Source of the DNA: Halobacteria archaeon AArc-dxtr1 | GTDB taxonomy: Archaea > Halobacteriota > Halobacteria > Halobacteriales > Natrialbaceae | Direction of reading: 5' to 3' | DNA length: 64,000 nt | Assembly (NCBI GenBank): GCA_025517425.1 | Contig: JAOPJY010000001.1 | Coordinates: forward strand, 1,288,217 to 1,352,216 | Part shown: positions 40,432 through 56,134 of the stretch, in pieces | Position numbering within the stretch: position 1 is the first letter of the stretch | Layout of the letters: each line of letters opens with the position of its first letter | Program-made: the position numbers and the translations under genes | The notes under the pieces: model-generated | What the model was told of the DNA's origin: nothing | Seen by the model: the letters and a program-made list of their open reading frames with translations, nothing else | The model's database searches: none

Positions 40432-42144
40432 TTAGCGAAGGGACTTGCTCACGTACGGCCCGTCCTGGTGGTAGCCGAGCTTCTCGCGGTAGTACTCACG
40501 GGCACCGATCCCCGAGATGACGCTCAGCTTATCGTACCCCGCGTCGGCAGCCATCTCTTCGGCTTGTCCGATGAGTCGACGCCCGTACCCCTGGTGTTGG
40601 TGCTGCGCATCGGATCCCGAATCGCCCATCGCGACCTCCGAGCCGTAGACGTGGAGTTCGCGAACCAGCGCGGCGTTTTCGAGTTCGTCTCTGGCCGGAC
40701 CTACGTCGGACCAGTCCGATGAGGATCGCCCGGCTGCGCCGGCCTCACCGCCGGGGAACCGGAGTCGGCAGAAGCCGATCAGGAGGTCCTGCTCGAAGTC
40801 CTCGAACGAGATGAAGTGTTCCGTCCCGCCACAGGCCTCGTAGGTCATGACATCAAGCTCTATCTCGTCAGGTTCGGCGTCGTTCATGCCGACCTCGCGA
40901 CAGCGGATACACTCGCAGGACCAGCCGTGTTCGTCCATCCGCTTCCGGGCGAGCTGGCGGAGATTCGACTTCCAGACGCCGGCGTCGATGAAGTCCGCGG
41001 GAATGTCTCGCTGGACACGCTGGAGGCGCGTATAGCGCGGAATCATGTCCTTGATTTCGGCGATTAGCTCGGCGGCTTCCTCGTTTTCGAGGGGATCGAA
41101 CTCTCCCTTGTGCCACCAGTCGTAGGTGGCGGTGTCGCGGACGATCAGCATCGGGTAGATTTTGAGGTAGTCAGGTTTCCACTGCTCTTGCTCGAAGATG
41201 CGCCGGAAGTCCTCGAGACACATTTCTGTGCTCATCCCGGGCTGGCCGGGCATCATGTGGAAGCCGACCTTGAACGCGGCGTCGCGCAGCCGCCGGTTGG
41301 CGTCGATCGAGTCCTGCGTGCCGTGGCCGCGGTGCATCTCCCGATTGATGCGCTCGTAGGTCGTCTGGACGCCGACCTCGACTTTCGTCCCGCCCAGGTC
41401 GAGCATCCGATCGATCTGCTCGGGATCACACCAGTCGGGTTTCGTCTCGAAGGTGGTCCCGATGTTGCGGATATCCGCCGTCTCGTTTTCGGCGATAACG
41501 TCCTCAACGTACGTCCAGTCGTACTCCGCGGGATCCTGTGCGAAGCTCTCGCCCTCGGCAGGTTCGGGCTCTTTGTCGACGTCGTACTCGTTCATCGCCT
41601 CCAGGGCGCGCTTGACGAACCACTCCTGGTAGTCGTGCGATCGGGCGGTCATCGTCCCGCCCATCAGGATCAGTTCGACCTTGTCGACCGGGTGGCCGAT
41701 CTCTCGAAGCTGCTCCAGTCGCAACGTCACCTGGCCGTAGGGATCGTAATCGTTCTGGACGCCGCGAGCCGCGGCGGGCTCCTCGCCCGTGTAGCTCTGC
41801 GAGGACGAAAATTCGGAGTCGGGACCGCCGGGACAGTAGAGACACTTCCCGTGGGGACAGCGCTCCGGGGAGGTCATGATCGCGACCGGCGAGACGCCCG
41901 ACGCGGTGCGGACCGGCTTGCGCCGAAGCACCGGCTCTAACACCTCGCGGTGCTCTTCGCCGGCGTGGTCGAGCAGCTCGGAGTTCTTGGGCACCTTCGG
42001 CGCCGAGTGCTCCGAACAGGCCTCGAGTTTCGCTTTCTCGACCTCGTCGCGTTCGATCTCGCCCGCGAGAATTCGCTCGACTATCGTCTCACAGACCGCT
42101 TCGAACGCGTCGGTTTCGGTCGGTTCGGGCGTCTCGGTACTCAC
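40432..42144 (-). CDS. elp3: tRNA uridine(34) modification enzyme Elp3 (radical SAM/GNAT)
   Basis: The 570-residue protein carries the Elp3 order: a radical-SAM cluster CPHGKCLYCPGG, GTTFETKPDWCDPEQIDRML (positions about 245-265), the domain with EQVQTT-like VEVGVQTTYERINREMHRGH, and a C-terminal GNAT domain HQHQGYGRRLIGQAEEMAADAGYD with SGIGAREYYREKLGYHQDGPYVSKSL. It starts 5-carboxymethyl modification of wobble uridines. GTG 42144 is chosen because a TATA box lies about 28 bases upstream and longer frames to 42366 lack family sequence. Confidence 0.93.
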   Translation of the reverse strand: MSTETPEPTETDAFEAVCETIVERILAGEIERDEVEKAKLEACSEHSAPKVPKNSELLDHAGEEHREVLEPVLRRKPVRTASGVSPVAIMTSPERCPHGKCLYCPGGPDSEFSSSQSYTGEEPAAARGVQNDYDPYGQVTLRLEQLREIGHPVDKVELILMGGTMTARSHDYQEWFVKRALEAMNEYDVDKEPEPAEGESFAQDPAEYDWTYVEDVIAENETADIRNIGTTFETKPDWCDPEQIDRMLDLGGTKVEVGVQTTYERINREMHRGHGTQDSIDANRRLRDAAFKVGFHMMPGQPGMSTEMCLEDFRRIFEQEQWKPDYLKIYPMLIVRDTATYDWWHKGEFDPLENEEAAELIAEIKDMIPRYTRLQRVQRDIPADFIDAGVWKSNLRQLARKRMDEHGWSCECIRCREVGMNDAEPDEIELDVMTYEACGGTEHFISFEDFEQDLLIGFCRLRFPGGEAGAAGRSSSDWSDVGPARDELENAALVRELHVYGSEVAMGDSGSDAQHQHQGYGRRLIGQAEEMAADAGYDKLSVISGIGAREYYREKLGYHQDGPYVSKSLR

Positions 42145-42168
42145 TACTCCGTTTTGGACGCGCGTCGC

Positions 42169-42176
42169 GAATAAGC
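42169..42176 (-). promoter_or_regulatory. TATA box of elp3
   Basis: The minus strand reads GCTTATTC, centred about 28 bases before GTG 42144, predicting a leaderless transcript. This supports the GTG start. Confidence 0.6.
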
Positions 42177-42680
42177 GTGTCGGACTCGCAAACCGCGGAT
42201 GTGGTGGAAGGATCGTGACTCTCGACGTGATCTCAGCGGTGTTCGCTGGGGAGAGCGAAACTCCCCCACCACCCGTTGACAGGAGAGGAACGCAGTGGCC
42301 GGAAACACACCTCTGCCAACCAGCATTGGATACCGTTGCCAGAGATAGTTTAGTTAGAGAGCACATAATTAATAGTTCACCTCCATTATTTTCTACTATT
42401 CACAATACCATACAACAATTATTGAGGCCCAGATAGGAATAGTCGATGACCACGAAAAAGCCTAACCGACCATAGAACAACCAAAGACGGGTTTAGATCA
42501 AATTTTGGCACTACGATAACGCAATAAATAAGTCAGAATATGATCAGATGGTGCGCCCCAGTTATGTGCGTTTCTAACACATCTATTTCAACTATTGAAA
42601 ATTAGATGGTTCCAAGACATGTCCTCATAGAGAGCAATCGGTATCATTATTATCCAATGTGTATATTTATAATAATCGTG
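42177..42680. other. AT-rich divergent region between elp3 and ppsA
   Basis: This stretch of about 500 bases has no credible gene. Its right part, about 42345-42680, is clearly richer in A and T than its surroundings. It holds a dyad at 42580-42608 and the ppsA promoter; TATTATCC at about 42646-42653 and TATTTATA at about 42664-42671 are both possible TATA boxes. A possible open start at 42606 for ppsA would read through this stretch, but it lacks family residues. Confidence 0.5.
42580..42608. promoter_or_regulatory. Candidate operator (dyad) before ppsA
   Basis: CATCTATTTCAA and TTGAAA-AT-TAGATG form near-perfect inverted arms around CTA, with one 2-base bulge. It begins about 100 bases before the ppsA ATG. 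A binding protein for a gluconeogenic gene would be a natural guess, but none can be named from the sequence; no TACT-N7/8-GAGTA motif (Halobacterium TrmB type) was seen. Confidence 0.4.
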
Positions 42681-44981
42681 ATGGCTGTCGTCTGGCTAGA
42701 AGAGGTTAGTGGAGATGAGCTAAACCGAGTCGGGGGGAAAGGCGCGTCGCTCGGTGAACTGACATCCGCAGCGCTTCCCGTTCCGCCTGGGTTCGTCGTG
42801 ACTACTGACGCCTACCGGTCGTTCATCCAGGCCGCAGAGATCAGCGAGGAGTTACACACAGCTATCGACGTCGACACCACGGACCCGTCCGAACTTGCAG
42901 CGGCTGCCGAGCGAGCACAAGAGCTGATTCGCAAGACGCCAGTTCCGGCGGAGATCCGGACAGCACTGCGCTCTGCCTACCACGAGATCGGTGGTGGGGA
43001 GGCGTTCGTGGCCGTTCGATCGTCGGCGACGGCCGAAGACCTTCCCGATGCGTCGTTTGCCGGCCAACAGGAGACGTTTCTGAACGTCACAGAAGAGAGC
43101 CTGCTCGATCGCGTTCGGGCGTGTTGGGCGTCGCTTTTCACACAGCGGGCACTCTACTACCGCAAGGAGTTCGGCTTCGATCACGAGGATGTCGCCATCG
43201 CAGTCGTCGTCCAGGAGATGGTCGCAGCGGAGAAATCCGGCGTGCTATTTACGGCCGACCCGACGACCGGAGCGAAACGGACGATTATCGAGGCGGCGTG
43301 GGGGCTCGGTGAGGCCGTGGTCTCCGGGGCCGTCTCGCCGGATAACTACTCGGTCTCACCGTCCGGTGAGATCGACGCGACCATCGCCGAAAAGCGTGTC
43401 ATGCACGTCAAAGACGAGACGAGTGGTGAGACAGTTGAACGGACAGTTCCGGACGAAAAACGCAACCGCCGGGTCTTATCGGATAATGAGATCGAGACGC
43501 TGGTCGCTCTCGGTGAGCAGATCGAGAACCACTACGACAGTCCCCAGGACGTCGAGTGGGCAATCGCCGATGGGGAGACGTACCTCTTACAATCCCGACC
43601 GATCACGACGACCGACGACGAAGACGTTGGGAAAGCGAACTCGACTGACGGCGACGGCGACAGGGAAGCGAGCACCGATTCACGCTCGACCGACGACGGG
43701 ACGGCCCAGGACAGTCTCGTCGACGGGTTGGGGTCGAGTCCCGGAACGGCAAGCGGCCCGGTCAGGATTATCCGGAAGCTTCACGACCTCGATCGGGTCG
43801 AAACCGGAGATATCATCGTCACGAAGATGACGATGCCCGATATGGTTCCGGCGATGAAGCGCGCGTCAGGGATCGTGACTGACGAGGGTGGGATGACCAG
43901 CCACGCGGCGATCGTGGCCCGCGAGCTCGGCGTTCCGGCGGTCGTCGGGACGAGCGATGCGACGGCAACGCTCGACGACGGCCAACCGGTGTCGATCGAC
44001 GGTCGAAAGGGGACAGTACTGCCGGGGCAGACGGAGACAGAATCCGAACGGGAAGAGACGGCCGATCCGAATCGCCCGGAGGCTACGGCCAGGCCAATGA
44101 CGGGGACGAAAGTGCTGGTGAATCTCTCGATCCCCGAGGCGGCCGAACGCGCAGCAGCGACGGGTGCCGACGGCGTCGGCCTCCTTCGCATGGAGCACAT
44201 GGTCCTCCTGTTGAACCAGGCCCCGGAGCGGTACGTCGAGCAACACGGCGCCGACGCCTACGTTGCCGAGCTCTGTCAGGGGATCAGCCGCGTCGCCGAC
44301 GCGTTCTACCCCCGACCGGTTCGGGTCCGCACCCTCGATGCACCCACGGACGAGTTTCGGCAACTCGACGGCGGCGAGGACGAACCCCACGAACACAACC
44401 CGATGCTCGGCTACCGCGGTATTCGACGGTCGCTCGACCGGCCGGACATGTTCGAACACCAGCTCGCTGCGTTCAGTCGTCTCTACGAGATGGGCTACGA
44501 TAACGTCGAGATCATGTTTCCGCTGGTCAACGACGCGGACGACGTTCGTGGAGCCAAGCGCCTGCTCGAGCGGGCCGGGATCGATCCCGGGAAGCGCCGG
44601 TGGGGTGTGATGATCGAGACGCCGGCCGCGGCCGTGATGACCAAAGAGGTAGTCCAGACCGGCACCGATTTCGTCTCGTTCGGGACGAACGATCTCACCC
44701 AGTACACGCTCGCAGTCGACCGGAACAACGAACACGTCGCTGATCGCTTCGACGAACTCCACCCCGCAGTCCTGAGACTGATCGGCGACGCGATCGCGAC
44801 CTGCCGCGAGCACGACGTCGAGACGAGTATCTGTGGGCAGGCCGGATCGAAACCCGAGATGATCCGGTTTCTCGTCGAAGAAGGGATTAGTTCGATATCG
44901 GCAAACGTCGATGCCGTCACCGAGGTGCAAAACGAAACGAAACGTGTCGAGCAGCGGCTCCTCTTGGAGTCAGTGCGCTAG
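42681..44981 (+). CDS. ppsA: Phosphoenolpyruvate synthase
   Basis: The 766-residue enzyme makes phosphoenolpyruvate from pyruvate and ATP. It has GGKGASLGELT, an ATP-grasp domain (VRSSATAEDLPDASFAGQQE, then LLQSRPITT), a mobile His domain (DEGGMTSHAAIVARELGVPAVVG, with the phospho-acceptor His) and a PEP-binding barrel containing the catalytic Cys (TSICGQAGSKPE). ATG 42681 is chosen because MAVVWLEEVSGDELN is the family start; the upstream in-frame Met at 42606 lies in AT-rich spacer. Followed by an IclR remnant. Confidence 0.95.
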   Translation: MAVVWLEEVSGDELNRVGGKGASLGELTSAALPVPPGFVVTTDAYRSFIQAAEISEELHTAIDVDTTDPSELAAAAERAQELIRKTPVPAEIRTALRSAYHEIGGGEAFVAVRSSATAEDLPDASFAGQQETFLNVTEESLLDRVRACWASLFTQRALYYRKEFGFDHEDVAIAVVVQEMVAAEKSGVLFTADPTTGAKRTIIEAAWGLGEAVVSGAVSPDNYSVSPSGEIDATIAEKRVMHVKDETSGETVERTVPDEKRNRRVLSDNEIETLVALGEQIENHYDSPQDVEWAIADGETYLLQSRPITTTDDEDVGKANSTDGDGDREASTDSRSTDDGTAQDSLVDGLGSSPGTASGPVRIIRKLHDLDRVETGDIIVTKMTMPDMVPAMKRASGIVTDEGGMTSHAAIVARELGVPAVVGTSDATATLDDGQPVSIDGRKGTVLPGQTETESEREETADPNRPEATARPMTGTKVLVNLSIPEAAERAAATGADGVGLLRMEHMVLLLNQAPERYVEQHGADAYVAELCQGISRVADAFYPRPVRVRTLDAPTDEFRQLDGGEDEPHEHNPMLGYRGIRRSLDRPDMFEHQLAAFSRLYEMGYDNVEIMFPLVNDADDVRGAKRLLERAGIDPGKRRWGVMIETPAAAVMTKEVVQTGTDFVSFGTNDLTQYTLAVDRNNEHVADRFDELHPAVLRLIGDAIATCREHDVETSICGQAGSKPEMIRFLVEEGISSISANVDAVTEVQNETKRVEQRLLLESVR

Positions 44982-46839: not shown

Positions 46840-49005
46840 CTACCCGAGAATCTCGCCGAGCGCGTCAAGCGCCGCCTCGCGGACGGCCTCGCGCTCGCCG
46901 GAGAGGAACTCGACGTGGCCGTCGTGGCCGCCGACGACGCGGACGCCCGCGTCGGGGACGGCCTCGGCGATCGCGTCGCCGAGATCGCGCACATCGACCG
47001 GCTCGGTCGCACGGACGCGGAGTTCATCGGTGTCGACGCCGATGGTCGCGAACGGCTCGTCGTCGCGCTGATCGCGGTGGAGCGCGTCTAACAGCAGGTC
47101 GGTCGTCGGGAAGTCATAGCGGTGGGTGAACTCTCCCGTATCGAGGACGACGGCGCTGAGATCGCCGACGGTCTCGGTGTCGGCGTTTCGTCGGGCCGTC
47201 TCGAGTTCGGCCTCGAGCTTGTCGCGGAACTGCTCTGAGACGTGGGCAGCGAGGTCGCCGTCCCGAGAGGGAGAGGACTCGTCGCCGAACAGCAGGTCGC
47301 CGACGAGTTCGCGCTTGTCCTTGTACGACTGGTAGTACGCCTCGAGCGCGACGGCTTCCCGGCGCTCTGCGAGGGCGGTCTCGTCGTAGCCGGCGTCAGC
47401 TGCGAGTTCGCGGTAGACGTCGGGGGTGTCCTCCCAGTAGCTCACCGCAGGCAGGTGGACGAGGTCGTCGCGACTGTCGGCGTCGACGAGGCCTGCGAGG
47501 GTCGCGGCCAGCGCGGTCGTCGTCAGCTCCGAGACGTCGACGTCGGCGAGCGATGGCGCGACGGTCAGCGAGACGGTGTCGGTGATCGCTGCGTCGGCGC
47601 GACTGTCGTCGACGACGATCGCGTCGGCGCCGTACAGCGAGAGGAGTTCGTAGCCGTCGACGGACTCGGCGGTCGAGCCCGAGTCGACAAGCACGACGAG
47701 GGGCAGCTGCTCGTCGTGGCGGTCGCGAGCCTCGAGCATCGAGGTGACGTCGTTCGTCGCGGCGTCCATGTCGTATACGCGTCCGTCGAGGGGACGGCGC
47801 TCGACGTAGTGGTAGGCGGCGTCCTCACGGGTGTGTTTCTCGCGAACCAGCGGGAGGACAGCGCGTTCGATCGCGGCACCCGCGACGTAGCCGTCTGCGG
47901 TCGCGCTGTGACGGATAACGATCGGACGCGTCTCGATGACTGCGCGGCGAATCGCCGTCGCGGCGTCGACGAGATCGTCCGAAACCGCTGCGACCGCGTC
48001 GTGGTCGGCCAGCAGGGAGGCGTCTTTGGGTTTGGCAGCCGACTCCAGGGACTGCTCGAGGCGATCTCGAACCGTCGCAGCGTCCTCGTCGTCGAGGATC
48101 TCGAGCGTCTCGGTCTCGACCTGGAGGTCGCCGTAGTGGCGCTCGACCTCGCCTTCGACGGCGATCTCGTTGCCGGTTTCGGCGTCGGGGTAGGCCCGGA
48201 CGCCGGCTTCTTCGAAGGCGGCGACCTCGACAGTCCCGGTCTCGTCGCGAAGCTCGAAGACGGTCGGGCCGGCGGTCTGTCTCACGCTCGTGATCTCGCC
48301 TTCGAGACGCACGACGGTGCCGACCTGGGAATCGATGGCGTCGACGGTCGTTCGGTTGAGCGCCGGTTCGTCGTCGGCATCGTCAGCCGACTCAACCGTG
48401 TCGTCTGTCGTCTCGGGGACAGCCTGAACGGCTGTGTTCCCGCCGTTCGCGGCAGTCTGATCGGACTCGTCAGCGGCTGCGTCCGAATCAGTTACATCTG
48501 CCGCGACGGTCTCGGACGAGGCGTCGTCGCTCGACGCATCGGAGTCGGTCTCGTCGGCGTCGCTCGACTCGGACTCCTGGCTCCGTCTTGAGGGTGCGTT
48601 GCTGGTCGCCTCAGCTTCCTCCTCGTCCTCGGGGAGTCGGTCCTCGGAGCCGGTGTCGACGAGGTCGCCACGGAAGTCCCGCTCGCGCTGGCGGATCGAC
48701 CAGCCGAGGTCGACGTTGCCGTTGTCACGAACGGAGAGTACCTGGACGAACACCGTGTCGCCGGGCTCCCAGTCGAGACTCTCGAGTCGCTGGTCTAGCT
48801 TGCTTCTGTGCAACAGGCCGGTGACGTGATCGCCGATATCGACGAAGACGCCGAAGTCGGCGTAGCCGTCGACGGTTCCCCGGTAGTACCGATCGGGGGT
48901 GAGCTGCGAGGCGGAGTTGCCGCGAAAGTCGAACGCAACGTCCTCCTCGTGGACTCCACAGACGAAACCGTCCACGGACGTGCCGCAGATGATACAGTTA
49001 CCCAT
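46840..49005 (-). CDS. DHH/RecJ-like protein with zinc finger, S1 and OB domains; degenerate active site
   Basis: The 721-residue protein has CxxC-x8-CxxH at 4-19, an S1-like domain (about 38-107), an acidic linker of about 110 residues, an OB-fold (about 227-305), and a DHH-like domain from about residue 360. In RecJ and GAN proteins the catalytic residues are DADG, D and DHH. Here they read SATADG at 367-372, D441 in VLVDSGST and VVDDS at 464-468, so DHH is lost. Nuclease activity is doubtful and a Cdc45-like structural role in DNA or RNA metabolism is possible. Confidence 0.8.
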   Translation of the reverse strand: MGNCIICGTSVDGFVCGVHEEDVAFDFRGNSASQLTPDRYYRGTVDGYADFGVFVDIGDHVTGLLHRSKLDQRLESLDWEPGDTVFVQVLSVRDNGNVDLGWSIRQRERDFRGDLVDTGSEDRLPEDEEEAEATSNAPSRRSQESESSDADETDSDASSDDASSETVAADVTDSDAAADESDQTAANGGNTAVQAVPETTDDTVESADDADDEPALNRTTVDAIDSQVGTVVRLEGEITSVRQTAGPTVFELRDETGTVEVAAFEEAGVRAYPDAETGNEIAVEGEVERHYGDLQVETETLEILDDEDAATVRDRLEQSLESAAKPKDASLLADHDAVAAVSDDLVDAATAIRRAVIETRPIVIRHSATADGYVAGAAIERAVLPLVREKHTREDAAYHYVERRPLDGRVYDMDAATNDVTSMLEARDRHDEQLPLVVLVDSGSTAESVDGYELLSLYGADAIVVDDSRADAAITDTVSLTVAPSLADVDVSELTTTALAATLAGLVDADSRDDLVHLPAVSYWEDTPDVYRELAADAGYDETALAERREAVALEAYYQSYKDKRELVGDLLFGDESSPSRDGDLAAHVSEQFRDKLEAELETARRNADTETVGDLSAVVLDTGEFTHRYDFPTTDLLLDALHRDQRDDEPFATIGVDTDELRVRATEPVDVRDLGDAIAEAVPDAGVRVVGGHDGHVEFLSGEREAVREAALDALGEILG

Positions 49006-49075: not shown

Positions 49076-49339
49076 TCAGTCGAAAATCGCCGACTCGTCT
49101 TCGAGTTTCGCCACGTCATCGACGATTTTCTCGACGTGTTCGGGAAACAACGAGATCTGAATCTCGTTTCCATCGTCGTCTTCGAAGACGAGTTTGACAC
49201 GCTTGTCGCCGAACGCGCGCGCTTCGGCCTCAGTGACGTCGAACAGCTTGGCAGTCGCCGACTTGTTAGTCGGCCCGACGTTCTTGATCGACCCCTCGTT
49301 CAACTCAACCATGAAGTCCTCGAGCGTGAGCGCGAGCAT
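49076..49339 (-). CDS. Conserved haloarchaeal protein of unknown function
   Basis: The 87-residue protein starts MLALTLEDFMVELNEGSIK and reads SATAKLFDVTEAEARAFGDKRVKLVFEDDDGNEIQIS (positions about 28-64), then HVEKIVDDVAKLEDES. It has a beta-rich core with acidic tail and no known motif. ATG 49339 is preferred over the frame to 49522, whose extra residues are basic and atypical. It lies divergent to the hydrolase gene at 49499. Confidence 0.65.
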   Translation of the reverse strand: MLALTLEDFMVELNEGSIKNVGPTNKSATAKLFDVTEAEARAFGDKRVKLVFEDDDGNEIQISLFPEHVEKIVDDVAKLEDESAIFD

Positions 49340-49407
49340 GGTCGAGATAGCGCGGCCGGGTAGAAAGTCGTCCCGGGTTCGACGTGGCGGAGTGGCGCAC
49401 AACCAGC

Positions 49408-49434
49408 CGCGCCACCGGCTGAGCCGGCGGCGCG
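49408..49434. repeat. Perfect-but-one-mismatch 27-base palindrome
   Basis: CGCGCC at 49408-49413, an A/C mismatch, CCGGC, loop TGA, GCCGG and GGCGCG at 49429-49434 form a strong stem. It lies in the 159-base gap between divergent genes, about 70 bases before the start at 49339 and 65 before that at 49499. Could be a regulator site or a scar. Confidence 0.5.
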
Positions 49435-49465
49435 ACCACCCGGTGAAATCGTCGCTGGCACCCAA

Positions 49466-49473
49466 CTTTAAGG
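49466..49473 (+). promoter_or_regulatory. TATA box of the UPF0173 hydrolase gene
   Basis: ACTTTAAG lies about 29 bases before ATG 49499, predicting a leaderless transcript. Confidence 0.5.
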
Positions 49474-49498
49474 ACACATCGCGAGAACGTCGACCCGT

Positions 49499-50224
49499 AT
49501 GCAACTGACCTGGCACGGCCACTCGACGTGGTCAGTGACCGTCGGCGAGACCGACCTGCTGATCGATCCCTTCTTCGACAATCCGAAGACGGACCTCGAT
49601 CCGAGCGACGTCGAGACGCCGGACTACGTCCTACTCACCCACGGACACGCAGACCACATCGCCCACGCCGGGGAGTTCTCCGAGGCGACGCTGGTCGCGA
49701 CGCCCGAACTCGTCTCCTACTGCCAGGAGGAGTTCGGCTTCGAGGACGCAGTCGGAGGAATGGGGATGAACATCGGCGGCACCGTCGAGTGTGGCGACGC
49801 CTACGTTACGATGCACCGCGCAGATCACACGAACGGCATCATGAGCGAGTACGACGTCGACGCCGGGATGCCCGGCGGGTTCATCATCTCTGACGCCGAG
49901 CCCTCGCCCGCCTCGGACGAAGAGAGTACGACGTTCTACCACGCTGGCGACACGGGACTGATGACCGAGATGATCGACGTCATCGGATCGTTCCTGGAGC
50001 CAGACGCCGCAGCGGTCCCGATCGGCGATCACTTCACGATGGGGCCGTGGCAGGCCGCCGTCGCGGTCGACTGGCTCGACGTCGACCACGCCTTCCCGAT
50101 GCACTACGACACGTTCCCGCCGATCGAACAGGACCCCGCGGAGTTCGCCGAGAAGGTTTCCGAGGCTGGCAGCGACGCCGAGGTTCACGTCCTCGAGGCC
50201 GACGAGCCGTTCGAGTTGGCCTAA
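49499..50224 (+). CDS. UPF0173-type metallo-beta-lactamase-fold hydrolase
   Basis: The 241-residue protein starts [15 protein letters not shown] and has [26 protein letters not shown] and HAGDTGLM, then [15 protein letters not shown] with [10 protein letters not shown]. These give the His/Asp metal ligands and family layout of the UPF0173 metal-dependent hydrolases. The substrate is unknown. ATG 49499 agrees with a TATA box about 29 bases upstream. It is followed after about 65 bases by a small haloarchaeal gene read in the same direction. Confidence 0.85.
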
Positions 50225-51437: not shown

Positions 51438-54400
51438 CTACAGTGCGGGAACCACTGACCCGGGAAGCGACGCGGCTACGTCGCCGGTATCGTCGCTGCC
51501 GGTCAGATCGTCGTCAGCGCCGTCGGAGTTTTCGCCGTCACCGTTTTCGACAGCGTCGCCATCGCCATCGGTCGCCACATCGGTGTCACCGCCATTAGCC
51601 GCCGCATCGGTTTCTCCGCCGTTAGTCGCCGCATCGGTGTCTCCGCCGTCGGTGGCTGCACCGTCGTCAGCGGTTCCCTCACCGGCACTTTCGTCGTCGG
51701 TGGCTCCATCGTCGACAGTTCCGTCATCGGTCTCTGTGGCCCCGTTCGCGTCGACTCCGTTCTCGTCAGTTTCGGTGGGCTCGTCTTCGCCGGTAGTCTC
51801 GGCTTCGCCATCCGCCTCATCTACCCCGTTCGCCTCGTCGGGATCGTCCTCGAGTGGCTCCTCGATCAGGACCGTCGCCTGATCCTCGTCCGTGGCGCTC
51901 GTGACGGAAGCGGTGTACTCACCCGGTTCCAGTTGCGTGGTGTCGAGGGCGAGTGAGACGGTCTGCTGCTCGCCCTCGTCGAGGGTGAGGTCGGCGTCGG
52001 CGAGCTGCTCACCGACTGAAAGCGAGAGCGTCTCGGTCGCCTCCTCGCCGCCGACGTTCTCGACGTCGACGTCGAGAATCACCTCCTCACCTTGCTCGGC
52101 AGGGTCAATCGGGTCGACGATATCGATGGCGAACTCGCCGGGCTCAGTTGGTGCGATCTCGCCGGCCGGCGGCGTCTGCGCCGACGCCGTCTCGGTGTGG
52201 TTGAACGCGCTCATGTCGACGACCCACTCAAGCTGTTCGTCGTCAGACTCTGGGGTCCACTCGACGGTGATCTCGTCAGCGCCGGAATCTAACTGCTGGG
52301 GCGGCTGGTCGTCAGTCGCGCCGTCGAACTCCCCGCCGGGGACGGCGGCGTCGTTTGGATTCTCGTAACTGAACGTGACTGCGATGGCGTCCCCGGTCTC
52401 CTGGGAGTTCTCGTAGGAGAGCGTCGGCAGCTCGGGCCGAATCTCGTCGAAGCACGCCGCAGTCTCCGGGTTCGAGTGGTCGATACCGGCGGTGAGGTAG
52501 GTCTCCTCCTCGGTCGTCAGCCCCGAGAGAACGGTGCCGAACGTGCCGTAGTCGGCGATCTCGACCAGAATCTCGTCTTCACCCTCGTCGATGGTTACGG
52601 ACGAGGTCTCGCCGACCTCGAAGACGACGGTTCCGGTAAACGGCGCGTCGACGTCGTCGCCGAATACGACCCCGTCCTCGATCAGAGTGTTACCGTAGCC
52701 GGCAGTGTCGTAAAAGCCCGTGCTGGCGAATACGGGATCACCGTCTTCGAACGTTCCGGAGACCGTCGCGCGATCGCAGCTCTGGAACTCGACCGACAGC
52801 TCCTCGGGCGGCGCGTCGTACGCACCGGCTGGCTCCGTCTCAACGCGAACCGGCTCGTCGTAGGCGAAGTCTTCCATTGGGATCTCCCAGGCCAACACTT
52901 CGTCGTCGGAGTCGGGAGTCCACGCGACGGTGAACTCGTCTTCGCCAGGGGCGAGTTCCGCGGGCGGTTCGTCGGCGGTCGTTCCCTCGACGAACTCGCC
53001 GCCCGTGATCGGTGCGTCGTTGGGGTTCTCGTAGCCGAACGTCACGTCGAAGGCAGTTGTACCTGGGTCGTCGCCCTCATCCCCGTCTGCGTCGGCCGCC
53101 GTGCCGTTTTCGGCGGGCTGGACGTCCTCGACGGTGAGCGTCGGCTCCTCGGGCTGGATCTCGGCGCCGCAGTCGAGGTCATCCGGCGGCGAGGCGAGCG
53201 CCGATTCGGGCTCGTCAGCGGGACTGACCCACGGAACGATAAACGAGCCGAAGTTGCCCTCATCGGGGACTTCGATGACGACCGTCTCCTCGTCGACTTG
53301 CTCGACGTCTTCCTCCTCGCCGACTTCCATCACGACCGTCCCGGTGAAGGGTGCCTCGACCTCCTCGCCGGCGGTCACGCCGGTGTAGAACGCGTCGCCG
53401 GGTCCGATGGTGTCGTACCAGATCGTTCGCGGGTAGAGGTCGTCACCCTCCTCGAGCGTCCCCGAAATTTCGACGCGCTCGCAGCTCGTGTACTCGACCG
53501 ACAGCTCCTCGGGTGGCGCCTCCTCGACGGTGTACTCGATCGTCTCGTTCGCGAGGACGTCCCCCTCGTCGGCGACGTCTCCGTCTCCCGCGGCAACGAC
53601 GGACACGTCGACAGTGGTGTTGTCCTCGATCGGCGGATCGAGCGCGAGTGACTCGTTCTCGACCGGCTCGCCGGCGTCGACGGCGTCGCTCTCGACCGTC
53701 TCGTCGTCGTACTCGGCTGTGAGCCGGTACTCCACGGAGGCGTTCGCCTCGTCGACGACGAGTTCGGTTCCGTCACCGTCCTGATCCGAAACGGAGAGGG
53801 TTGCCTCGGGATCGTCGATCTCCTCGTCGACCGTGTAGAACGCTCCGTCGAGGATCGGAGCGCCGCCGGGTGTGACGTACGGATCGTCCTCGGCGCCGTC
53901 GGTCTCGGCGTACTGGAACGTCTCGTCGTCGGTGGTGTCGTGGTGGACGACCGCGACGATCGGACCGCTCGCCTCGATGGGCTCGTCGAGTTCGATCTCC
54001 ACGTTCTCGTGGTCGCCGGCAGAGAGGTACCCCGAGGCACCGATCACTGCCTCGGGATCGGCGTCGGCGGCGACGCCGTCGTAGATCGCGACGAAGCCGC
54101 CCTCAGAGAGGGAGACGGAATCGACAGTGACTGTCGTACCGTTGCCGGTCTGGTCGGCGAGCGAGATCGAGGCTTCGCCCTCGCGTTCGTCTATTTGTTC
54201 GACCTTCTGGACGATCTCGATCTCGATCTGCTGGACGATTACGGTCGGATCGTCGACGCCCTCTGCGATCGCGTAGTCGGCGGTGTCGGCCGCGGTGTCG
54301 AAGGTTAGCGCCTGGAGCTGGGTGACGCTTATCTGCTGGTACTGGATCGCCCGGGGGAGTTCCTTGCTCGCACCGCTGGCGATGACCTGGATCTGCTCGA

Positions 54401-55874
54401 CCGAGACCTCCTGGTGCTGGACGAGCACGCCGCCGGCGGCGCCCTCGGCGATGTACTGCACCTGCGTGGCGCTTACGGTCTGGCGCTGGAGGACGGCCCC
54501 CTCGCCGGCGCCGAACGAGGCCGCCTGAATCTGCTCGATTTCGACGATCTGATACTGGATCGCCGAGTCGACCGCGCCCGTGGCCGCGCCGGTCGCGGCC
54601 TTCTGGATCTGGGTCACCTCAACCTCCTGATATTGGACGATGACGCCCTGTGCACCGCCGTCGGCCGCAGCCTGGATCTGCTCGACCGTCGCCTCCTGGC
54701 TCTGGACGATCGCGCCGGTTGCGGCGCCGAAGGACGCCTCCTGGATCTGCGTGATCGAGATCCGCTGGACCTGCTCGACGTCGCCAGTCTGGAGCTGTTT
54801 CAGCGGCCCCTTGCCGGCGCCGCGGGCCGCGAACTGCGTCTGTTCGGCGCTTACGTCCTGCTTCTGGACGAGCGCGCCTTTGGCCGCACCGGTCGCGGCC
54901 TTCTGGACCTGTTTGATCGTGACCTGCTGGCGCTGCTCGACCGTGATCCGCTGATCCTGCTCGATCGCCTGCTCTGTCGTCCCGGCGAGCGCGCCCGCGG
55001 CAGCGCCCGCGGCGGCGTGCTGAGCGTGCTCGATCGTGACCTGCTGGCGTTGCTCTGCCGTGATCTTCTGGTACTGCTCGAGCGTACCGTACGCCGAGCC
55101 CTGCGCCGCTTCCTGAATCTTCGGTTTCTTCTCGACGTCCTTCGCCCCTGCCTCGCTCGCGGCGCCGGCCGCCGCGCCGAGCGTGGCGATCTGGATCTGC
55201 TCGACGGTGACGTGCTGGTACTGCGCGAGGCCGCCGTGGGCCGCCCCCCAGGTCGCACTTTGCATCTGGCTCGCGTTGACCGTCTGGTGCTGGGCCAGCG
55301 CGCCGTCGGTCGCGCCGCCGACGGCTGCCTCGACGTGCTCGGTTTCGATCTCCTGAACCTGCTCGACGTCGACCTCCTGGGCCTGCAGGAGCGAGCCGTG
55401 GACCGCACCAGCCGTCGCCGCCTGCACCTGCTCGACGTCGGCATCCTGGTGCTGGCTGACGGACTGCGTTGCGGCGTCAACAGCTGCAACACGCTGTTCC
55501 TGGGTTACCTCGACACCCTGGGACTGGACCAGTTCGATCCCCTCGTCGACTCCCGATTCGACCGCGTCCGCGGCGTCGTCGGAGAGGTCGTCGGTCTCAC
55601 CGGTTGCACCCATTTCGATCGGGTCGTCGTCACCGGCATCGAAGACCGGTTGCCCCGTCTCGTTGGCGGCGAGCAACGTGGCGCCGTCAGCGGCCGGGGT
55701 GGTGCCAGCAGCCTCAGGGTTCGACGCGGCACCGTTTGGCGACTCCGCTTCGGCTCCGTTGTCACCGACGCCCGAACCCATCCCGCCGATTCCGCCGAGG
55801 AAGGGAAGCGCGAAGACGCTCGTCACCATCAAGACGGCAACGATGACCGTTCCGCCCGCGAGTGTGCGATTCAT
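51438..55874 (-). CDS. Giant secreted Gln-rich repeat protein
   Basis: The 1,478-residue protein has a signal-like helix (MNRTLAGGTVIVAVLMVTSV). Residue numbers here count from a GTG six codons upstream. From about 120 to 560 it consists of Gln-rich units with a repeating VEQ(I/V)Q...GAAxGAL.QYQ pattern, with 13 GxxxG steps at 162, 193, 216, 239, 265, 296, 335, 358, 389, 412, 435, 461 and 484. A DUF7282-like domain follows (about 573-690), then two similar 220-residue domains (about 796-1027 and 1030-1245), each with two cysteines, a CARDB-like domain (1251-1346) and an Asp/Gly-rich tail. No C-terminal sorting signal is seen. It is likely a surface or matrix protein; function unknown. Confidence 0.85.
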   Translation of the reverse strand: MNRTLAGGTVIVAVLMVTSVFALPFLGGIGGMGSGVGDNGAEAESPNGAASNPEAAGTTPAADGATLLAANETGQPVFDAGDDDPIEMGATGETDDLSDDAADAVESGVDEGIELVQSQGVEVTQEQRVAAVDAATQSVSQHQDADVEQVQAATAGAVHGSLLQAQEVDVEQVQEIETEHVEAAVGGATDGALAQHQTVNASQMQSATWGAAHGGLAQYQHVTVEQIQIATLGAAAGAASEAGAKDVEKKPKIQEAAQGSAYGTLEQYQKITAEQRQQVTIEHAQHAAAGAAAGALAGTTEQAIEQDQRITVEQRQQVTIKQVQKAATGAAKGALVQKQDVSAEQTQFAARGAGKGPLKQLQTGDVEQVQRISITQIQEASFGAATGAIVQSQEATVEQIQAAADGGAQGVIVQYQEVEVTQIQKAATGAATGAVDSAIQYQIVEIEQIQAASFGAGEGAVLQRQTVSATQVQYIAEGAAGGVLVQHQEVSVEQIQVIASGASKELPRAIQYQQISVTQLQALTFDTAADTADYAIAEGVDDPTVIVQQIEIEIVQKVEQIDEREGEASISLADQTGNGTTVTVDSVSLSEGGFVAIYDGVAADADPEAVIGASGYLSAGDHENVEIELDEPIEASGPIVAVVHHDTTDDETFQYAETDGAEDDPYVTPGGAPILDGAFYTVDEEIDDPEATLSVSDQDGDGTELVVDEANASVEYRLTAEYDDETVESDAVDAGEPVENESLALDPPIEDNTTVDVSVVAAGDGDVADEGDVLANETIEYTVEEAPPEELSVEYTSCERVEISGTLEEGDDLYPRTIWYDTIGPGDAFYTGVTAGEEVEAPFTGTVVMEVGEEEDVEQVDEETVVIEVPDEGNFGSFIVPWVSPADEPESALASPPDDLDCGAEIQPEEPTLTVEDVQPAENGTAADADGDEGDDPGTTAFDVTFGYENPNDAPITGGEFVEGTTADEPPAELAPGEDEFTVAWTPDSDDEVLAWEIPMEDFAYDEPVRVETEPAGAYDAPPEELSVEFQSCDRATVSGTFEDGDPVFASTGFYDTAGYGNTLIEDGVVFGDDVDAPFTGTVVFEVGETSSVTIDEGEDEILVEIADYGTFGTVLSGLTTEEETYLTAGIDHSNPETAACFDEIRPELPTLSYENSQETGDAIAVTFSYENPNDAAVPGGEFDGATDDQPPQQLDSGADEITVEWTPESDDEQLEWVVDMSAFNHTETASAQTPPAGEIAPTEPGEFAIDIVDPIDPAEQGEEVILDVDVENVGGEEATETLSLSVGEQLADADLTLDEGEQQTVSLALDTTQLEPGEYTASVTSATDEDQATVLIEEPLEDDPDEANGVDEADGEAETTGEDEPTETDENGVDANGATETDDGTVDDGATDDESAGEGTADDGAATDGGDTDAATNGGETDAAANGGDTDVATDGDGDAVENGDGENSDGADDDLTGSDDTGDVAASLPGSVVPAL
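52155..53510 (-). repeat. Two tandem 220-residue Cys-pair domains in the giant protein
   Basis: The segment encodes residues about 795-1246 (numbered from the upstream GTG). Both domains open EELSVE(Y/F)xSC, share APFTGTVV(M/F)EVGE, NPNDA and EGEFAxx-like GGEF, and hold a Cys early (804, 1039) and late (908, 1147). Internal duplication is clear by eye but sequence identity is only moderate. Confidence 0.7.
54390..55500 (-). repeat. Gln-rich 23-residue repeat array in the giant protein
   Basis: Encodes residues about 131-500 (numbered from the upstream GTG). Distances between successive GxxxG motifs are 31, 23, 23, 26, 31, 39, 23, 31, 23, 23, 26 and 23 residues. The longer ones are 23 plus 8 or 16, matching one or two extra 8-residue strands such as QRQQVTIE; the 26s add three residues. 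This fits a solenoid of variable lap length. Confidence 0.8.
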
Positions 55875-56134
55875 CGCCACCACCGACGGCACGCGAATCG
55901 CACCGATCGGGTCTCGACCGTCGTCGGCCGTCCCTCGGTCGGTCGGTCAACCGAAGCTGTCGACTGACCGCCACCCATTGTCGATCCGTCGACCGTGTCT
56001 AGAGACCACTCGGCTCCGTGAGCCACCGAAACACCGCCGTCTGTCACCCGCTTGCTGCCGTCTGTCGCCAGTTTACCGCCGTCTGTCGCCCGTTCCCACC
56101 CGACGGGGTCCGCGCGTGTAGTATCGAGACCCAT
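55871..56134 (-). CDS. Candidate leaderless upstream ORF, translation-coupled to the giant gene
   Basis: The 87-codon frame (MGLDTTRADPVGWERATDGG...) ends at a TGA that overlaps the giant gene's ATG (ATGA at 55871-55874). The minus strand reads CGCTTATG at 56160-56167, about 26-33 bases before this ATG, a plausible TATA box. The middle is a 7-residue repeat (xTDGxxx, three times) encoded by a 21-base tandem repeat. It is rich in Asp, Gly, Arg and Thr, with no hydrophobic segment. It may be a real small protein or a translated leader. Confidence 0.4.
   Translation of the reverse strand: MGLDTTRADPVGWERATDGGKLATDGSKRVTDGGVSVAHGAEWSLDTVDGSTMGGGQSTASVDRPTEGRPTTVETRSVRFACRRWWR
56034..56096. repeat. 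21-base tandem repeat, three copies
   Basis: The units, starting at 56034, 56055 and 56076, share GCCGTCTGTC(A/G)CC with differing tails. They code for ATDGGKL-, ATDGSKR- and VTDGGVS-like segments of the candidate upstream ORF. Confidence 0.8.

Follow-up and report, generated by a model that had tools for sequence, protein, structure and literature searches.

The window analysed here is a whole stretch of 64,000 nucleotides of DNA from Halobacteria archaeon AArc-dxtr1. An earlier reading of it, made from the sequence only, had placed an open reading frame at 46840-49005, and we confirmed an intact frame there. The encoded protein belongs to an alignment of 20 RecJ4 sequences (A1), which it matches end to end. 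The features of the gene are listed below, with residues of the protein in brackets.

46840..49005, (-) strand: recJ4 gene, intact frame with ATG start, 721 aa
48949..48996, (-) strand: CxxC-CxxH finger (residues 4-19), C4-x2-C7 ... C16-x2-H19
48706..48885, (-) strand: S1 domain (41-100), Pfam PF00575, E 3.3e-7
48361..48657, (-) strand: acidic disordered linker (117-215), pLDDT <50 at 121-213
48094..48312, (-) strand: OB fold (232-304), Pfam PF01336, E 2.8e-12
47335..48006, (-) strand: DHH-like domain with degraded active site (about 334-557, limits approximate), from the 5yh1 alignment and the structure match
47890..47913, (-) strand: motif I remnant RHSATADG (365-372), HAN equivalent RHHADxDG
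47671..47688, (-) strand: motif II remnant VDSGST (440-445), HAN equivalent DNGST
47602..47616, (-) strand: motif III remnant VVDDS (464-468), HAN equivalent VVDHH
46843..47184, (-) strand: DHHA1-like C-terminal domain (about 608-721), GGGH motif gone (V691-G692, no His)

The finger, S1 and OB domains proposed in the sequence-only reading were recognised, the finger by its residues and the other two by Pfam, and the three motif remnants had been read correctly. Two features were absent from that reading, namely the retention of D371 and D466 and the linker of about 100 aa, modelled with low confidence, between S1 and OB.

For comparison we used a RecJ4 set of 70 rows sorted by score; L121 and L122 are pieces from genomes that were represented already, and their removal left 68. 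These rows are not independent, as Natrialbaceae account for 43 of the 60 named loci, and some rows are partial. The finger residues C4, C7, C16 and H19 were invariant in A1 and all four were retained in 64 of the 68 rows. The exceptions were L052 and L060, which are cut at the N-terminus, L049, which was unaligned there, and L053, which reads through without the cysteines. The start or frame of L053, from Haloferacaceae archaeon XH8, is ambiguous. Asp and Glu made up 34% of the linker in our protein and 23% of the whole protein, and thus part of the linker acidity is a general feature of the protein. Across 66 RecJ4 rows the linker had a median length of 105.5 aa (21-143) with 32% Asp+Glu. 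The RecJ4 of genome G034 is divided over two open frames (L107, L122), as is the RecJ3 of G433 (L162, L165), by frameshift or sequencing error in both cases.

The neighbourhood of recJ4 is hardly shared, with any neighbour gene of the window seen in one of 14 Haloferacaceae loci (L053), and conserved gene order was uninformative as a clue to partners. A small conserved ORF without Pfam match lies immediately upstream (49076-49522, (-) strand); it was found in 44 of 60 RecJ4 loci, among them 41 of 43 from Natrialbaceae, and a more internal start looks likely. Also near recJ4 are an Elp3-type radical SAM/acetyltransferase gene (40432-42366, (-) strand), present in 18 of 60 RecJ4 loci, and a PEP synthase/PPDK-type gene (42606-44981, (+) strand). 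An ORF of 1484 aa at 51438-55892 ((-) strand) carries a DUF7282 domain and a long imperfect Gln/Ala-rich repeat, read by eye, with units like VEQIQxAxxGAAxGA. A search for a CC-rich pattern gave one match against 0.65 expected, which is chance level, and the promoter scan used a bacterial consensus and is uninformative here.

Family and fold of the protein

Pfam search of the 721-aa protein did not detect PF01368 (DHH). In a phmmer search residues 310-712 aligned with 5yh1, the DHH domain of P. furiosus PF0399 (E 3.8e-49), which we take to be HAN; the match of 5yh1 to RecJ3 also supports this identity. The protein matched the NCBIfam family HAN_nuclease (NF053577) with E 2.9e-112. Its score of 376.1 bits lies below the equivalog cut-off of 840 bits, and the HAD, DNG, DHH and DRS motifs expected to be intact in a HAN are not. 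All 20 members of A1 matched HAN_nuclease, and no other NCBIfam family was matched at E <=1e-10.

An AlphaFold model built from the 20 RecJ4 sequences (mean pLDDT 77.1, pTM 0.65) superposed on 5yh1 with Z 42.2 and rmsd 2.8 over 412 residues. The next matches were other RecJ chains (Z <=26.8), a human replisome chain (22.1) and Cdc45 (5dgo, 19.1). The DHH-family core claimed in the sequence-only reading was thus found by phmmer, by NCBIfam and in the predicted fold. RecJ4 and HAN/RecJ3 have the OB-DHH-DHHA1 fold in common (residues 310-712), whereas HAN has every catalytic residue and RecJ4 does not. RecJ3 of H. volcanii differs also in its disordered region, described as just 22 residues long (PMC10470531).

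The protein fits the RecJ4 subfamily, the inactive paralogue of HAN/RecJ3. It lacks the active-site residues, it has the zinc finger, S1, long disordered linker and OB fold, and it grouped with other haloarchaeal RecJ4 apart from RecJ3, in a set that does not contain the H. volcanii protein HVO_2889.

The active site and selection on RecJ4

We compared the catalytic columns of RecJ4 with those of two other sets. The RecJ3 set was sorted to 53 rows, of which ten were removed (duplicates or pieces, plus L065, the N-terminal part of a RecJ4 that the score had placed wrongly); the only HAN of G020 is among the remaining 43, in which G175 is counted twice (L075, L111). The outgroup, from other Halobacteriota, consisted of 18 loci, reduced to 17 by removal of L129, which is G020 again. 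The first motif-I Asp, the motif-II Asn, both His of DHH, the TGM...E motif and the Arg of DRS were replaced in all 68 RecJ4 rows; all 43 RecJ3 rows and all 17 outgroup HAN rows keep these columns unchanged. At the position of the first motif-I Asp (T369) RecJ4 has Thr in 64 and Ser in 4 of 68 rows. The second His of RHH was His in none of the 68, neither DNG nor DHH occurred in any (0/68 each), and in the same alignment GGGH of DHHA1 was without its His.

Most of the former ligand columns vary at or above the median of the RecJ4 core: the entropy percentile was 97th for position 367, 88th for 526 and 64th for 441, and D441 and D526 were retained in 42/68 and 40/68 rows. The exceptions were D371 and D466, the second Asp of motif I and the DHH Asp, each retained in 67 of 68 rows, and T369, which at the 29th percentile is constrained. 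New conserved residues were also observed, W524 (67/68) and Q559 and K564 (68/68 each); RecJ3 has Leu in the 559 column and Gly in the 564 column in 43/43 rows.

In HAN of T. kodakarensis the motif-I substitution D366A is reported to nearly abolish activity (PMC5717133), its position within the motif-I Asp pair being left unassigned here. Because of this effect and because the catalytic columns are replaced in RecJ4, nuclease activity has very likely been lost. The proposal of the sequence-only reading that the protein is probably not a nuclease thus agrees with the broken site in 68/68 rows and with the description of the H. volcanii counterpart as an apparent non-catalytic scaffold (PMC10470531); the same two points support its wording of a structural or RNA-binding derivative.

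Since two acidic residues are nearly invariant and the replacing Thr is constrained, RecJ4 may still bind a ligand or metal. A pocket remodelled into a working enzyme or a ligand sensor, using other residues, would account for D371 and D466 and for the new conservation of T369, W524, Q559 and K564. We regard it as very unlikely, as several former ligands (D441, D526) vary among RecJ4 proteins, unlike in a metal site, and the new invariant residues may merely belong to an interface or to the core.

Purifying selection was evident in 12 of 12 close RecJ4 pairs, which were picked by hand (dN/dS 0.13-0.30). These values, with the intact ORF in the window, rule out a decaying pseudogene, and orthologues across Halobacteria rule out a chance or mis-called ORF. 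Taken together, the constraint, the drifting ligands and the newly fixed residues fit a subunit retained for its surface or for binding.

Distribution and origin of RecJ4

RecJ4 was present in 289 of 292 Halobacteria genomes, each of which gave at least two matches in the search with the RecJ4 alignment; in one of the 289 (G433) it is a fragment at a contig edge. The other three, G020, G420 and G488, gave a single match, that being HAN. RecJ4 was not detected in these three assemblies, whose completeness is 98, 92 and 89%, respectively, and gaps are possible, most of all for G488. Their HANs (L109, L158, L160) retain RHHADADG, DNGS, DHH and GGGH, and two of them contain DRS as an exact string. 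All three genomes have RNase J (in G020 at 396 bits, slightly below the cut-off of 400) and none had a match to Rrp41. In the RpoB tree they formed a clade (100/98) beside 11 other Halobacteria (99/97).

Among 18 other Halobacteriota genomes Rrp41 was unmatched in 12, and RNase J was found in 17, including all 12 of these. The HAN search, the one search bearing on RecJ4 in these 18 genomes, gave one match in 17 of them and two in G338. All 12 genomes without Rrp41 match have HAN; a second HAN-type match was absent in 11 of them, the twelfth being G338, where the second match may be of any HAN-like type.

Trees were built from subsets of 59 rows (RecJ4 clade), 45 rows (including the AU test), 33 rows (second tree) and 22 RpoB rows. 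In the 59-row tree RecJ4 was a single clade (21/21 rows, support 100/100, stem of 1.77 changes per column), separate from the outgroup clade and adjoining RecJ3. RecJ3 grouped with RecJ4 at a support of 61/59. With p-AU 0.36-0.37 in the 45-row set, neither R4+B3 nor R3+B3, which is the split R4+outgroup, was rejected, B3 being the early-branching lineage. Three scenarios therefore fit: RecJ4 was gained once the lineages had split, it was gained earlier and then lost, or its root lies immediately outside the remaining haloarchaeal rows.

Because the three genomes that branch first among those tested retain HAN and RNase J without detected RecJ4, RecJ4 may be a later addition within the class. 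The gene tree, being compatible with several orders of duplication and split, does not by itself imply this late appearance. The late gain is possibly new, as the published co-occurrence table pools RecJ3 and RecJ4 (PMC10470531). RecJ4, a paralogue of HAN/RecJ3, most likely arose on the haloarchaeal stem, and the ancestor shared by all members of its clade would have lost the metal-binding active site, presumably in a single event, with the protein probably retained as a non-catalytic subunit.

Partners and probable role of RecJ4

The sequence-only reading had also called the protein Cdc45-like. As a Cdc45-like replication factor RecJ4 would be a RecJ relative without activity and have GINS and MCM as binding partners. 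Inactive RecJ homologues, arCOG00428 and others, are considered structural replication proteins (PMC3307487), the four RecJ proteins of H. volcanii are listed as open candidates (PMC7776575), and the model matched Cdc45 (Z 19.1), a resemblance expected for any RecJ-family core. We hold such a role to be extremely improbable. In sequence and fold the protein is nearest to HAN, and DHH_CID was unmatched in RecJ4 up to E 10 in a Pfam search whose HMMER filters drop most weak matches; the GAN-like protein of the same genome (L005), as positive control, carries DHH_CID at E 2.5e-37. The core fold is common to RecJ4, GAN/RecJ1 and Cdc45, but RecJ4 has no detected CID and adds the finger, S1 and OB.

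The inactive replication RecJ of Halobacteria is assigned to arCOG00428 at a locus with S15, S3 and Pcc1, and arCOG00429 is described as having an active DHH domain (PMC3307487). RecJ4 has been placed in arCOG00429 alongside HAN, and its missing residues were remarked upon (PMC10470531). The S15/Pcc1/S3 genes are not beside recJ4, which is flanked by a small ORF (sub-threshold DUF2269) and an ORF without Pfam match. On another contig an ORF of 395 aa lies between the S15 and S3Ae genes, with a Pcc1-like ORF alongside. From position and sequence these are candidates for RecJ2 and Pcc1, both without Pfam match, and the RecJ2 candidate would thus occupy the replication RecJ locus of PMC3307487. 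In addition, recJ1, recJ3 and recJ4 are stated to be non-essential in H. volcanii even in combination (PMC7776575, citing unpublished work). The Cdc45-like label was therefore unsupported for ancestry or partner, with no DHH-CID detected and better-fitting genes elsewhere in the genome, and RecJ4 is expected to partner with RecJ3 and aRNase J, not with GINS.

RecJ4 is a genuine but already described protein, and the mBio 2023 paper on H. volcanii (PMC10470531) answers the question raised by the sequence-only reading. There RecJ4 (HVO_2889) is reported as an apparent non-catalytic scaffold that joins active RecJ3 to aRNase J, with a RecJ3:RecJ4:aRNase J stoichiometry of 2:2:1. RecJ3 and RecJ4 in equal amounts form a 560-kDa particle (RecJ3/4) that acts on RNA and ssDNA as a 3'-5' exonuclease; aRNase J was lost from RecJ3 when recJ4 was deleted, and deletion of either recJ3 or recJ4 caused hypersensitivity to phleomycin (PMC10470531). 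A Cas1 pull-down recovered RecJ3, RecJ4, RNase J and Cdc48a, which is compatible with a complex and is no proof of one (PMC9051519).

HVO_2889 is described with the same zinc finger, S1, long acidic disordered linker, OB and inactive DHH core (PMC10470531). Its disordered region, at 100-235 between S1 and OB and with an acidic patch, is about 135 residues long as described, compared with about 100 aa here (PMC10470531). In H. volcanii, too, RecJ4 is described as coexisting with RecJ3 and aRNase J and without exosome. The two organisms belong to different families, the nearest named relatives of the window being Natrialbaceae. We assigned probable orthology to HVO_2889 by its described architecture, the two-per-genome pattern and a clade shared with Haloferacaceae. 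K358, the SAMP2 site of H. volcanii RecJ4, could not be assigned a position in the 721-aa protein.

The same genome encodes RecJ3 (G000:C1:273647-275479, with HHADGDG/DNG/DHH) and RNase J (G000:C1:1134209-1135549, 421 bits), and Rrp41 (ECX1) was unmatched in it. With all three subunit genes present, we infer by analogy the same RecJ3/RecJ4/aRNase J complex in this species. Our own results concern sequence, broken site, conservation, co-occurrence and distribution; the complex, its stoichiometry, the scaffold role and the DNA-damage phenotype are taken from the H. volcanii work (PMC10470531). We are highly confident that the protein is haloarchaeal RecJ4, a HAN/RecJ3 paralogue with a lost active site that acts as a non-catalytic subunit. 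As in H. volcanii, it would form a large complex with active RecJ3 at a 1:1 ratio and recruit aRNase J to it. The acidic linker is a suspected docking element and presumably the segment that contacts aRNase J, and the finger, S1 and OB probably bind RNA or ssDNA.

Finger and S1 RNA-binding domains are found in Csl4/Rrp4 of the exosome. We tentatively suggest, as a rather doubtful reading, that RecJ proteins have built a counterpart of the archaeal exosome with aRNase J attached, in which RecJ3 and RecJ4 would combine such domains with a pairing of active and inactive paralogue comparable to Rrp41/Rrp42, and that RecJ4 was added only after exosome loss. This order is suggested because the three early-branching genomes have HAN and RNase J with neither Rrp41 nor RecJ4 detected, and because HAN and RNase J occur in the 12 further Halobacteriota without Rrp41 match. 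A replacement of the exosome in function was already proposed in PMC10470531; we take the subunit analogy and the late gain of RecJ4 to be additions to that paper.

In summary, RecJ4 shows that almost an entire class can fix a dead nuclease core as an architectural subunit. If its lack of RecJ4 is confirmed, the early-branching lineage would be a natural test of what RecJ4 contributes, as HAN and RNase J would there be apart or otherwise joined.
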